DNA of 64,000 nucleotides from Bacteroidales bacterium (GTDB lineage Bacteria; Bacteroidota; Bacteroidia; Bacteroidales; NBLH01), in the NCBI GenBank assembly GCA_016937695.1, contig JAFGWC010000056.1:1-64000 (forward strand), written 5' to 3'. Within the stretch, counting starts at the first letter, position 1. Each line of letters starts with the position of its first letter. Of the stretch, positions 47,331-53,415 are shown in pieces. The notes below the pieces were generated by a model that saw only the letters and a list, made by a program, of their open reading frames with translations, was not told where the DNA came from and ran no database searches. The position numbers and the translations under genes were made by a program.

Positions 47331-49391
47331 TTAGTTGTTTTTAATAAGTTTTATTAATAAAATTTCAATAACTAAAAAGAGCAAGGACAAAATAATGAAT
47401 ATTTTCCACAAATCTGTTCTTTCGTTTTTTAATTCGTTAAGTTCAGAATTTAAATTATCTTGTTTTGATGATAATATTTGTGTGTTTATTAGTTTATTTT
47501 GTTTTATTAAATTTAAAATTTCATCGTTTGTATAAAAATAGACTTCAGATTCTTTTCTGTCGTAATTAAATGATAATCCGCTAATTGTATCTCCATTATT
47601 TGTTAAAAAGTAGTTTCCTTCTTTTGTTATTTCATCAAGCATTGTTATTTTAATATTGTTTTTGGAATTTACTGTATTAGGAATAAAATCAAAATTATTT
47701 TCTGAATTTTTAATATGTAAAATTTGGTCGCCATCTAGTTTTTTTGTACTTAAATTTATATTTTTTTCTTTGCCGATTACATAGTATAATTTATTGTTTT
47801 CCAGACTATAAGCTGCAATATTATAGATTGTTGGAACAAATAATGGATGTATTACAAAATTGCTGTTTGTTTGGTTGATTGGAAAACTGAAAATATAAAC
47901 ATTAGATTTTTCAAAATTTAACTGACTTAATAAAATGTCATCATTAACAGATTTTAGTATAACTTTTTCGAAGTTTAAGGCAGAATTTGTTTTTTTGAAA
48001 TGTCTTTTTATTTCAGGAAGAATAGGTTTTTCGGTTTGTTTATTAAAAACTCCGTTGTAAATAAAATGTTGGTATTCAATTAATCCAATTTGTGTTTTAT
48101 TAGTATCTAAATATTGAAATTTTTCTGCATTTAAACTAGATAATAGCTCATTATAATTTATTAAATCGCCATTTTGATTTGGAATAAATAAAAGATTGCC
48201 GCCATTATTAATATATTCTTTTATCAATTGAATAAATCCTGAAGAAAAGTTTTCTATTTCATCGAGTATAATTAGTTGATATTTAGATATATCTGATGTT
48301 TTGAGATTTGTAATATTTGAATAATCAAGCAAAAAGTCGATTTTATTTTCGAATAATGCTTTTATAAATTTATTTTCATTATTATTAGCGAGCAAAAGTA
48401 TTTGTATTTTATTGATAATGTGGTAATTAAAATAAAAACTATTGTCAAAACTAATTGGATAATCAGTAATTTCAAGCTTTGCATTTAAATTACCTTTTTC
48501 GGTATTTGTGAAATTAATTTGGATATTTATTGTAGATTTTTCATCAATATTAAAATTGCTTACAGCTTTTTGTTTATTGTTGATTAACAGCTTTATAGGA
48601 ATATTTTCATAAGTTTCTGTGCCTGTATTTGTAATTTTCACATTAAGCGTTTCAACTTTATTAAATCTTCTTTCGGGCGATTCGAACCAAACTGAGTCTA
48701 TATAAATATTATTTAACTTATTGCCTGCTAACGGAATTATATTTAAAATTAAGTTAGAGTCTGATTTAATTTTTTGAAAATCAGAAATGTTTTTTTGAAA
48801 ATCAGAAATTAAAAAAGAATTATTCAAAAATTTTGTGTTTTTAAATTCATCGTTTAAAAATTGTGTTTGAAAATCAATAATTTCACTAATTGATTTTCTT
48901 TTTGCCGATAAATCTGTATTATTTATAAATTTTAAAATTTGTTCTTTGTTAGTAATATTTCTGTGTTTTGCTTCTAATTGATTATTTATAAAAGTAAATT
49001 TTTGATTATTATCAAAAGAATTTACAATAAGTTTAGCTCTTTCTTTTGCGGCATCAAAAATATTTCCATTTACACTTTCGGCGTTCATACTGAATGAGTT
49101 ATCTATATAAATAGAAACTATTTTTTCTTCAATATTTTTATATTCTTTATTTTTATCGATATAAGGAAAAGAAAATGCTGTAACCAAACTTATCAGAAAT
49201 AAAATTCTGCTTATTAGAATTAATATTTGTTTTAAGCGTGATTTTGAATGACTTTCATTTTTTAAGTTTTCTAAAAAACGTATATTGCTGAAATAAATAG
49301 TTTTATGAAATCTAAAATTAAAAAGATGAATTATAATTGGAATTATAATTAAGAATAAAGCCCAAAGAAAGTTAGGATATAAAAATGTCAT
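47331..49391 (-). CDS. BatA N-terminal-domain / VWA-like membrane protein
   Basis: 'MTFLYPNFLWALFLIIIPIIIHLFNFRFHKTIYFSNIRFLENLKNE' N-terminus; C-terminal TM. Confidence 0.88.
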   Translation of the reverse strand: MTFLYPNFLWALFLIIIPIIIHLFNFRFHKTIYFSNIRFLENLKNESHSKSRLKQILILISRILFLISLVTAFSFPYIDKNKEYKNIEEKIVSIYIDNSFSMNAESVNGNIFDAAKERAKLIVNSFDNNQKFTFINNQLEAKHRNITNKEQILKFINNTDLSAKRKSISEIIDFQTQFLNDEFKNTKFLNNSFLISDFQKNISDFQKIKSDSNLILNIIPLAGNKLNNIYIDSVWFESPERRFNKVETLNVKITNTGTETYENIPIKLLINNKQKAVSNFNIDEKSTINIQINFTNTEKGNLNAKLEITDYPISFDNSFYFNYHIINKIQILLLANNNENKFIKALFENKIDFLLDYSNITNLKTSDISKYQLIILDEIENFSSGFIQLIKEYINNGGNLLFIPNQNGDLINYNELLSSLNAEKFQYLDTNKTQIGLIEYQHFIYNGVFNKQTEKPILPEIKRHFKKTNSALNFEKVILKSVNDDILLSQLNFEKSNVYIFSFPINQTNSNFVIHPLFVPTIYNIAAYSLENNKLYYVIGKEKNINLSTKKLDGDQILHIKNSENNFDFIPNTVNSKNNIKITMLDEITKEGNYFLTNNGDTISGLSFNYDRKESEVYFYTNDEILNLIKQNKLINTQILSSKQDNLNSELNELKNERTDLWKIFIILSLLFLVIEILLIKLIKNN

Positions 49392-49435: not shown

Positions 49436-50008
49436 TTATTTTTTATTTAAAACTTCAGTTTTTTCATTGGCTAAAAGAAGTAATGTTTCGTGCCAAGGTG
49501 GAGCGGCTCTTAAAACACCATCAAAAATATTTTCAGGATTTTCAATAATTTTTGAATAAATAAACTTTGTATCATCAATACATTTTTTTAAAAATGTAAT
49601 TACTTCTTTTTCATCTTTAAATTCTGAAAGTTCTTTATATCTAGGAAATTCACTGCCAATTCCTCCTCTGTCAGAAGTGTATATCATTTCATCGTCGGTT
49701 ATCCAATTTGATAGATTTTCTCTGAAAAAATCTCTGTATTTGAGCCTTAATTCACGATTTACGCCATTAGTTCTAACCAGAATATTCATTCCAACATGAC
49801 TGTAATGTTTTTTTTCACTTACTTTGAAAAAGCCAATGTTAATTCCAAAAACATAAGTCATATCGCCATTTACAAAGCCTAATCCATGAAAATGCCAATC
49901 GCCGGAAATTCTTTGATGAGTATACAAACCAAGATTATCTTTGAAATAAGGTTTTATTTCCAGAAAAACTTGTTTAATATTTTCTCGTTTAATTAAATTA
50001 TCACTCAT
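49436..50008 (-). CDS. Hypothetical protein
   Basis: Long ORF with normal composition and start; no family recognised. Confidence 0.6.
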   Translation of the reverse strand: MSDNLIKRENIKQVFLEIKPYFKDNLGLYTHQRISGDWHFHGLGFVNGDMTYVFGINIGFFKVSEKKHYSHVGMNILVRTNGVNRELRLKYRDFFRENLSNWITDDEMIYTSDRGGIGSEFPRYKELSEFKDEKEVITFLKKCIDDTKFIYSKIIENPENIFDGVLRAAPPWHETLLLLANEKTEVLNKK

Positions 50009-50401: not shown

Positions 50402-50812
50402 ATGATGAAAAAAACAAGCTATTTATTTATTAGTCTACTTATTATCGCATTTATAAGTTCTTGTACAAAATCACCTTCAGATATGATTGTTGGCGAATGG
50501 AAAATATCGGAAATAAAAACTTCGGAAGAAATACCTGATGAGCAAAAGGAAGTTTACAAACAAATTATGGAAGATATGAAATCCAGTACAAAAATTGAAT
50601 TTAAAAGTGATGGAACATATCAGCAAACTATTTCTGAAGAAACAACTACCGGAAAATGGAGTTTTACTGAAAATGAAAATACTTTGGTAATGATAAACGA
50701 AAATGGTAAAACAGAACCTGCTAAAATTATTGAATTAACAGAAAACAAACTTGTGTTGGAAAATCAATTAGATCAAACTAAAAATACAATTTCTTGGGAA
50801 AAAGTAAAATAG
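50402..50812 (+). CDS. Lipocalin-like lipoprotein
   Basis: Lipobox 'IAFISSC'; 'IVGEWKISEIK...TKIEFKSDGTYQQTISEETTTGKWSFTENENTLVMI'. Confidence 0.75.
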   Translation: MMKKTSYLFISLLIIAFISSCTKSPSDMIVGEWKISEIKTSEEIPDEQKEVYKQIMEDMKSSTKIEFKSDGTYQQTISEETTTGKWSFTENENTLVMINENGKTEPAKIIELTENKLVLENQLDQTKNTISWEKVK

Positions 50813-50981
50813 CTTTTAAATTTTACTTTATTTTATTAATTTAGATATTTACAATTGGTTTTTTTTTTACATGTTTGTATTTAAAATTATCAGAAAATTA
50901 ATAATTTCTGATATAAATTTACAAAATATTAGTTTTTTGTAGTCATAAAAGGTATTGTAAATAATTTGAGAAAATTGATAG

Positions 50982-51875
50982 ATGAAAGATATTTGTGCAA
51001 TATATTTAAAAGAAAATAAAGCAATTGTTAAAAAGCTTGTTTCTAAACTTGAATCTGATGGAATTTCATGCTGGGTTGCACCTCGTGATTTTAATCAAGA
51101 AGATAAAGAAATAGTAAGAGAAGTAATCGAAAAATCAAGAATTTTACTTCTTGTGTTAGATAATAATACTACTAAAAATAAACAAATAGTTGATATTCTT
51201 GAGATTGCATTAGATAATAATTTGCAAATTATTCCTTTTGTAACAGGAAAAATTGATACAGACTTATATTCAGAATACTTTTTTTATTCATTTAGTTGGG
51301 TTGATGCATTTGAAGACGAATTTGATGAAGCTTATGAAGTTTTATTAGAGGCAATTGATGAACTTTCAGAAGGTAAAACAAAGAAATCAGCGCATTTAAA
51401 AAAATCGGATACTAAAAATACAGTGAACAAAAACTGGTACATTGCAGCAATATCAACAATTGTAATTTTTGTTGTGTATTTTGTTTATAATCAAGCATTT
51501 AAAAATAAATATGAAGATGTTATTCTTGGACAATGGCAACTTGCCGATTATTCTGATAATTTGAGAAGAGCGCCTCAGGATAGTTTAAACATTATTAATC
51601 AAATACAAATAATGAAAAAAAATGCATTAATGATTTTTAATGAAGATAACTCTTTTGAAAGACGCGGATTTGCTCCGGAACCACAAATTGGACAATGGAA
51701 AATTGGCGAAAAAGGTAAATATTTATATTTAACACCATTTGGCACACAGCAAGAAGACAAAATTAATATAGAAAAACTTGATGATAATACTTTAATGCTC
51801 GTTGTTAGAGAAAAAATTCCGACTGTAAATGCAGATTCTATTGATGTAATAACTAAACTTACCTTTTCCAAATAA
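50982..51875 (+). CDS. TIR-like domain - TM helix - lipocalin-like domain protein
   Basis: 'KAIVKKLVSKLESDGISCWVAPRDFNQEDKEIVREVIEKSRILLLVLDNNTTKNKQIVDILEIALDNNLQIIPF' TIR-like; TM 'NWYIAAISTIVIFVVYFVYNQ'; C-terminal 'ILGQWQLADYS...IGQWKIGEKGKYLYLT'. Confidence 0.8.
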   Translation: MKDICAIYLKENKAIVKKLVSKLESDGISCWVAPRDFNQEDKEIVREVIEKSRILLLVLDNNTTKNKQIVDILEIALDNNLQIIPFVTGKIDTDLYSEYFFYSFSWVDAFEDEFDEAYEVLLEAIDELSEGKTKKSAHLKKSDTKNTVNKNWYIAAISTIVIFVVYFVYNQAFKNKYEDVILGQWQLADYSDNLRRAPQDSLNIINQIQIMKKNALMIFNEDNSFERRGFAPEPQIGQWKIGEKGKYLYLTPFGTQQEDKINIEKLDDNTLMLVVREKIPTVNADSIDVITKLTFSK

Positions 51876-51881
51876 ATTTTA

Positions 51882-52475
51882 ATGGAAAAAAATAAAAATA
51901 TCGAATTAAATTATATTGATATTCCAAAAGTTTTTTATGCTGAAAAATCAAATAATTTATTTTCTAAATGCATTATGTGTGATAAAAACTTATTGGAAGA
52001 AAATACATTTTATCATATCGAAAAATCTTTGAAAAAAAATTTAAAATCAGGCCAAACCGAATTAATTTTTGAATATGCTTTGTGTATAAATTGTCAACAA
52101 AAAATTGCCGAAGAATTTTCAAAAGAAACTATCGAAAGAATTAAAATGTATTATGATTTATATGTTGATTTTAAAAAAAGATACGAGGAATTGACAAAAG
52201 ATAAAATAATTGACGTAAATAGTTGGATTTCAAATTGTATTTTCACAAAAAAGCCTATTTCCGAATTAAATGAATATCACATTGGTGCATTGTGCGTTGG
52301 CAAAAAACTTATATTAGATGCTCTTCCTTTTGCTGTTAGTTGGGACGCGATTAATGAAATGGAAAGTTTATATTCAAAAAAAACAAAAGATGCACTAGAT
52401 GGATTTAAAGATTTAATAATGCCGCCAGAAATAAGAGAGAAAATCCCTGATGGGAGTAGAGTTATTTTAATTTAG
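51882..52475 (+). CDS. Hypothetical protein with two CxxC motifs (possible zinc ribbon)
   Basis: 'SKCIMCDKNLLEEN' and 'YALCINCQQKIAEEF'; starts 7 nt after the stop of the TIR-like gene. Confidence 0.65.
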   Translation: MEKNKNIELNYIDIPKVFYAEKSNNLFSKCIMCDKNLLEENTFYHIEKSLKKNLKSGQTELIFEYALCINCQQKIAEEFSKETIERIKMYYDLYVDFKKRYEELTKDKIIDVNSWISNCIFTKKPISELNEYHIGALCVGKKLILDALPFAVSWDAINEMESLYSKKTKDALDGFKDLIMPPEIREKIPDGSRVILI

Positions 52476-52527: not shown

Positions 52528-53415
52528 GTGAAAAGAGCAAAAAATATTCTTAGAGTTTTGCTTTATCTTTCTGTATTTGTTGTAATTTATTACTTATATC
52601 GGTTTGATTATCTTGTTATTAGCTTAATTAAATTCAATTTTTTATACTTATTTATTTCTGTTGTTTTATTATGGCTTGGATTTTATATTAGTACACTTAG
52701 CTGGCAAAAAAGTCTGAAAGTTTATAATATTAATATAAGCAAATCGCTTGCAGTGTATTCGCATGGTATTTCTGTTTTTGCAAAATACATTCCGGGTAAA
52801 ATATGGGTTATTCTTGGCAGAGCGTCAATTGTTTCTGAGAAAGAATATTTATTATCGCAAACAGCAAGTGTTTCGTTAAAAGAACAATTGGTTTATCTTT
52901 TTACAGGACTTGTAATTAGTTGTATAATACTTCCTTTGGCAAATATTGATTTGATAATTTTATTCTTTGTTTATATTTCAACAATTGTATTAGGAATATT
53001 TCTATTTAACAAAATAGTTCATGAAAAGCTTATTCTTTTATTAGAAAAATTATTTAAAAAAAAGCTTGATATTCCATATATTAATATTAGAAAATCTTTT
53101 CCATATTATTTATATATAATTATTTACTGGTTAATATGGAGTTTTGCATTTTATTTTTTTGTGAAATCAATTTTACCCGATACACTTCTAATTACAGCTT
53201 TCTTTTTTCCAGTAAGCGTAAGTTATGGATTAATTGCAATTATTGTTCCTGGTGGAATTGGCGTTAGGGAAAGTATAATTGCATTGTTATTAACAAGTAT
53301 AGGTGTTGATGCATCTTTAGCAATAAGCATTTCAGTTATACAAAGGCTTTGGTTTATTTTTGGCGAAGTGTTTATATTTACTTTAGCTTTAATAGTTAAA
53401 AATAAAGCAATTTAG
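52528..53415 (+). CDS. Lysylphosphatidylglycerol synthase TM-like / flippase-like membrane protein (GTG start)
   Basis: 'GIVVPGGIGVRESIIALLL'-type motif: 'YGLIAIIVPGGIGVRESIIALLLTSIGVDASLAISISVIQRLWFIFGE'. Confidence 0.75.
   Translation: MKRAKNILRVLLYLSVFVVIYYLYRFDYLVISLIKFNFLYLFISVVLLWLGFYISTLSWQKSLKVYNINISKSLAVYSHGISVFAKYIPGKIWVILGRASIVSEKEYLLSQTASVSLKEQLVYLFTGLVISCIILPLANIDLIILFFVYISTIVLGIFLFNKIVHEKLILLLEKLFKKKLDIPYINIRKSFPYYLYIIIYWLIWSFAFYFFVKSILPDTLLITAFFFPVSVSYGLIAIIVPGGIGVRESIIALLLTSIGVDASLAISISVIQRLWFIFGEVFIFTLALIVKNKAI

Follow-up and report, generated by a model that had tools for sequence, protein, structure and literature searches.

Two neighboring genes of a Bacteroidales genome, one encoding a lipocalin-type lipoprotein and the other a membrane protein that unites a TIR domain with a second lipocalin domain, form a conserved pair, which we tentatively regard as a possible, vertically inherited sensor of the cell envelope whose TIR domain would act as a non-enzymatic adaptor in the cytosol. 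The pair resides in a window of 64,000 nucleotides (contig C89) belonging to a genome of 3.9 Mb that is 99.6% complete; the relatives of this window are Bacteroidales MAGs. The original prediction had described an operon of three genes, the last of which encodes a CxxC/CxxC protein. All three open reading frames were confirmed at their positions (Table 1), and the CxxC gene indeed follows the TIR gene, though with six intervening nucleotides and not seven. Since the lipoprotein gene and the TIR gene are 169 nt apart, a single transcript is not established for the window; in nine relatives the corresponding gap is smaller than 40 nt.

Table 1. Positions of the genes and protein domains within the window.
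Feature	Position	Strand	Evidence or remark
Lipocalin-type lipoprotein, 136 aa	50402..50812	+	Lipocalin_4 E 3e-10; lipobox ISSC (Cys21), signal peptide, GxW lipocalin motif
TIR–TM–lipocalin protein, 297 aa	50982..51875	+	TIR_2 40.1 bits; AlphaFold2 model m8f74b9e73c88, mean pLDDT 78; 24-member family
Cytosolic TIR domain (predicted location), residues 1-129	50982..51368	+	VIA-align Z against known TIR structures
Codon of Ile72, at the catalytic-glutamate position of NADase TIRs	51195..51197	+	Alignment column
Transmembrane helix, residues 152-181	51435..51524	+	Hydropathy, Lys-rich N-terminal flank, helix in model
Lipocalin-like domain, probably periplasmic, residues 183-297	51528..51872	+	Profile cross-match, Lipocalin_4 in relatives, Foldseek
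CxxC/CxxC protein, 197 aa, probable zinc ribbon	51882..52475	+	Genus-specific neighbor, outside core pair

A search with the single sequence of the TIR protein in 395 genomes of the class returned the window only, and the family became visible by profile search. When the order was searched with a profile and GTDB contigs were scanned as well, 24 genes encoding TIR–TM–lipocalin proteins were obtained, which are distributed over many Bacteroidales families. In a sample of 395 genomes of the phylum, the profile detected no full-length protein of this kind outside the order; what it matched there extended no further than a TIR-length stretch or the TIR together with the TM part. Leaving aside L115, whose contig ends too near, 23 loci could be inspected, and in 18 of them the lipoprotein gene lies immediately upstream on the same strand. 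The soluble paralogue of the sensor that had been proposed as a partner was thus found again, in lipid-anchored form. Of six further genomes from the genus of the window, three possess the whole gene trio in unchanged order with approximately 50% identity, which excludes a chance association. The five loci without the lipoprotein (L116, L117, L119, L120, L124) contain a conserved TPR-like gene of ~460 aa less than ~100 nt downstream, the product of which is possibly an alternative partner.

The surroundings of the pair are partly shared within the genus. In L013 and L015 the flanks contain the aminotransferase gene. In L014, it is the 190-aa gene (49436-50008, - strand), which has no Pfam family above cut-off, that recurs beside the pair along with a gene for a large membrane protein. 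The 686-aa gene at 47331-49391 stands with the 190-aa gene beside the pair in L014. On the other side of the window's genes, an LPG_synthase_TM-type gene with a GTG start (52528-53415, + strand) precedes glycosyltransferase-type genes; its place is taken by other membrane genes in relatives. Three loci possess a third, more diverged lipocalin-like lipoprotein gene after the TIR gene (L114, 8222-8872; L122, 6669-7241; and L123, where the downstream gene was called by eye). Upstream of the pair, a gene transcribed divergently and containing a Cys-rich motif (ECPxCxxxFRKFLPYG...RLCPxCLSLERH), perhaps encoding a methyltransferase, was seen in L087, L088, L089, L091, L092, L095, L118 and L121.

The first gene had rightly been taken for that of a lipocalin-like lipoprotein. 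Its product combines the lipobox FISSC with a Lipocalin_4 domain (Pfam, 41 bits, cut-off 22.4, E 3e-10), and each of the 18 lipoproteins encoded upstream of a family member likewise has the lipobox cysteine. Judged by reciprocal profile searches, the C-terminal domain of the TIR protein is a true homologue of this lipoprotein: the profile of the TIR protein hit the window lipoprotein with E 1.6e-9 and the lipoprotein profile hit the window TIR protein with E 5.8e-11, by which the likeness of motifs noticed at the outset was upheld. The fused domain of the window did not match Lipocalin_4 in Pfam when searched alone, and 12 of 23 family members gave this match with the fused protein; its place among the Lipocalin_4 homologues follows from the matches of its relatives, the profile cross-match and the fold. 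The AlphaFold2 model, calculated from 12 input sequences, exhibits the strand/helix alternation of a TIR domain, a long helix (152-181) and an eight-stranded barrel (183-296). With this middle protein, the top match of Foldseek overall was 4nw4, a DUF4822 protein of Enterococcus, and the lipocalin-like protein 4kh8 also ranked high. By the positive-inside rule, the Lys-rich N-terminal flank of the transmembrane segment suggests an N-in/C-out topology, in which the TIR domain would lie inside and the lipocalin domain probably in the periplasm.

The history of the two lipocalins was traced in a tree. Fused and upstream copies are located on opposite sides of a starred branch (96/92), and both sides repeat the same sub-groups. 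On this tree the labels fused and upstream changed once each, and none of 500 label shuffles gave a value as low. The two-sided tree with its parallel topologies points to one old duplication, after which the copies were inherited jointly, and this is the simplest account of the pair. Three plain lipoproteins without TIR (L125, L126, L127) possess a lipocalin domain of the fused type, and those of L125 and L127 branch beside the fused copies (fused side 93/91). Furthermore, HD-domain-like and IDH-like genes lie downstream of the lipocalin gene, encoded on the other strand, in L014, L088, L095, L113, L125 and L127. Judging from their gene order, these loci with or without a TIR fusion look like one ancestral locus; by the same neighbors, the anchor of the same lipocalin appears to be a lipid in certain lineages and TIR with TM in others. 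The loci of the family are inherited vertically among housekeeping genes, and the synteny in the genus and the HD/IDH neighbors of six loci do not agree with a mobile or patchy defence-island context.

The N-terminal domain of the second protein belongs to the TIR superfamily, as had been supposed. It scored 40.1 bits with PF13676 (TIR_2, cut-off 28) and 22.0 with Pfam TIR (cut-off 21.3), and its flavodoxin-like model was aligned by VIA-align to the TIR domains of SPARTA (Z 16.6), Hydra TRR-2 (16.3) and SARM1 (15.8), the values ranging from 14 to 17 across SPARTA, Hydra TRR-2, SARM1, MyD88 and TLR TIRs. The question of the fold, on which the original prediction depended, was thereby settled in its favor (Z ~16), as was the single TM helix behind the domain; the hydrophobic stretch of this helix covers residues ~152-174. 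At the catalytic-glutamate column on helix alphaC, each of the 50 control TIR_2 domains of the order (30 high-scoring and 20 mid-scoring, all outside the family) carried glutamate. Among the 24 family members, two have E and 13 have Q, the others carrying A, L, I, S, D, N or T; hence 22 of them have lost the residue, including all four of the window's genus (I/A/S/A, with Ile72 in the window). The alphaC glutamate of NADases is therefore missing from the window TIR, and only L113 and L116 retain it, the former together with typical Box 1 and BB-loop residues. Glu74, two residues past Ile72, is kept across the genus. A shift by two residues on a helix leaves the side chain facing away. In SARM1, positions 71 and 75 lie on one side and position 73 on the other (PMC7075850). 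Because the catalytic glutamate is gone in nearly all members and invariant in the controls, the aligned sequences suggest that the TIR domain of the family is probably not an NADase.

Several members show changes or shortening in Box 1 and the BB loop. Most of the invariant columns fall in the lipocalin domain, and the TIR domain is the less conserved of the two. The changed BB-loop regions and the weaker conservation could indicate a fading domain. In three close pairs, all of which carry Gln at the catalytic column (the window's genus was left out as too diverged, i.e., saturated), the dN/dS ratios of the TIR domain amounted to 0.105, 0.113 and 0.136, those of the lipocalin domain to 0.03-0.09. 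Values of ~0.11 are far from neutral; thus, we concluded that the TIR domain devoid of its glutamate is still under purifying selection.

Taken as a sensor, the pair might work as follows. The lipocalin lipoprotein, probably located at the outer membrane, would pair with the inner-membrane protein by way of the paralogous periplasmic lipocalin. An alteration of the lipoprotein or its ligand, caused by loss of cargo, mis-sorting or envelope damage, may then shift the contact between the lipocalins or the way in which the inner-membrane protein clusters. Acting as a non-enzymatic assembly or adaptor domain, like the self-associating TIRs of the MyD88 type, the TIR domain in the cytosol would relay this change. 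In MyD88, TIRAP and endosomal TLRs the catalytic glutamate is rare (<10%), and the TIRs there are signalling platforms (PMC7075850). The two-membrane layout has its closest described precedent in NlpE–CpxA, where a lipoprotein with a barrel fold signals to a receptor of the inner membrane (PMC6737893). A narrower assignment, to a Toll-like receptor class that comprises a periplasmic lipocalin as sensor, one helix, a non-enzymatic TIR signalling by assembly alone and the lipid-anchored twin as co-receptor, appears rather unlikely to us in this full form. The main weakness of a receptor is the missing output. No output partner was found: in the 24 family loci, no regulator or enzyme conserved in all lineages stands beside the pair, and the window genome encodes no second TIR_2 or TIR protein. 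The five members that lack an adjacent lipoprotein and the possibly fading TIR domain also speak against a sensor.

The main rival of a receptor is a plain anchor. In this case, TIR and TM would merely tether the protein to the inner membrane, the periplasmic lipocalin would be a carrier or chaperone of a hydrophobic ligand travelling between the membranes, the lipoprotein being located at the outer one, and no signal would come from the TIR domain. This explanation, though doubtful, deserves serious attention. As described above, lipocalins of the fused type also occur as plain lipoproteins, and those of L125 and L127 lie beside the same HD/IDH genes as fused members, indicating that the anchor is exchangeable; moreover, the TIR domain evolves faster than the better conserved lipocalin, its BB loop and catalytic glutamate being eroded. 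However, the low dN/dS of the TIR domain in the three close pairs is not expected of an inert tether, which also has no need of 120 cytosolic residues, and the complete TIR fold has been kept.

The original prediction had left the choice between a signalling and a defence system. A defence by abortive infection, with the ectodomain as a phage sensor at the envelope and NAD+ depletion as the task of the TIR domain, is clearly unlikely. TIR NADases are common in phage defence. PycTIR is an example (PMC11224242), and within the family L113 and L116 would still possess the required glutamate, L113 even in a typical setting. Nonetheless, this residue is absent from most members and from each of the four in the window's genus, and models of PADLOC-DB (database version 2023) gave nothing above noise with the three genes. 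Collections of phages, plasmids and viral contigs yielded no TIR–TM–lipocalin copy. Thus, the missing glutamate, the vertical housekeeping context and the lack of a PADLOC match weaken an enzymatic defence, and of the two options a non-catalytic sensor fits better.

Should the TIR domain still bind NAD+ or an ADP-ribose nucleotide but leave it uncleaved, the domain could be a metabolite sensor that controls the periplasmic lipocalin from the inside out. Gln, the commonest replacement of the glutamate (13 of 24), could preserve a polar pocket, and purifying selection persists; yet Ile, Ala and Ser occupy the position in the window's genus, and residues of Box 1 and the BB loop are changed too, so that we consider such a function quite improbable.

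The CxxC/CxxC protein is a member of a Bacteroidales family that lacks annotation and was detected in 16 of the 183 genera sampled from the order. In 23 aligned sequences, C30xxC33 and C68xxC71 are invariant, and C119 is likewise invariant in the family (the window and L035-L053); the protein is probably a zinc-ribbon protein. Sequence searches of Pfam, NCBIfam and PDB disclosed nothing above noise, its AlphaFold model (pLDDT 81) matched no PDB structure at E <= 0.001, and a PADLOC match to Cas2d was at noise level (E 0.015). The gene adjoins the TIR gene in only four of 24 loci, all of them in the window's genus, and the homologues elsewhere in the order that we examined stand alone among unrelated neighbors. 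By this distribution it was ruled out as a core component and must be regarded as a local neighbor. The predicted three-gene cluster holds with respect to its genes, their order and their recurrence in the genus, but not as to the membership of the CxxC gene; conservation of the neighborhood across many families is restricted to the lipoprotein and TIR genes. A three-gene system with the CxxC protein as output or redox partner is hardly tenable, since the gene, though close by on the same strand in all four pair-bearing genomes of the genus, is absent from the other 20 loci and its family is stand-alone elsewhere.

Characterised bacterial TIR proteins mostly serve phage defence as enzymes that consume NAD+ or make nucleotides. 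Thoeris, Pycsar, CBASS TIR-STING and SPARTA effectors have the TIR fold in common with the window protein (Z ~15-17 to SPARTA TIRs), but the pair described here has neither a partner cyclase nor an Argonaute, and it differs from them in the absence of a PADLOC match and of the catalytic glutamate. Animal TLR/IL-1R and MyD88/TIRAP proteins share the plan of an ectodomain, one TM helix and a cytosolic TIR. In our protein the order is reversed, the TIR being N-terminal, and the ectodomain is a lipocalin instead of LRR or Ig domains; the likeness amounts to TIR homology alone, and we make no claim of descent. If the comparison with Toll-like receptors were correct, the family would represent a bacterial TIR pathway without NAD+ chemistry. 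In NlpE–CpxA, a small beta-barrel lipoprotein of the outer membrane is thought to report to an inner-membrane receptor, a likeness of layout only and not of membership: the locus encodes no kinase domain in Pfam, its NlpE match is sub-threshold (13.8 against 22 bits), and in place of a histidine kinase and response regulator the putative receptor has a TIR domain and its own copy of the barrel.

Closer to the family are other TIR–TM proteins of the order (L078, L054, L175), which likewise consist of an N-terminal TIR_2 domain, a single TM and a C-terminal extension; L078 also shares the motifs CWIAPRD and HWLDA. These proteins keep the catalytic glutamate seen in the controls, whereas the TIR–TM–lipocalins constitute their own clade (97/94) and are usually accompanied by the lipocalin lipoprotein. 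The upstream gene is an ordinary member of the Lipocalin_4/DUF4923 lipoproteins of Bacteroidota, from which the second gene differs by having TIR and TM in place of the lipid anchor. TIR–TM proteins and Lipocalin_4 lipoproteins are hence kinds already known, and the open-licence literature contained no TIR–lipocalin protein that we could find. If the pair is a sensor, it would be an envelope-sensing pair of Bacteroidales of a type undescribed in this literature. A chromosomal family with a selected TIR domain lacking its glutamate makes it testable whether bacteria, like animals, use TIRs purely as scaffolds. What is new compared with the known systems is the fusion of TIR and lipocalin, its pairing with a lipoprotein and a catalytic residue that has been lost repeatedly while selection continued.
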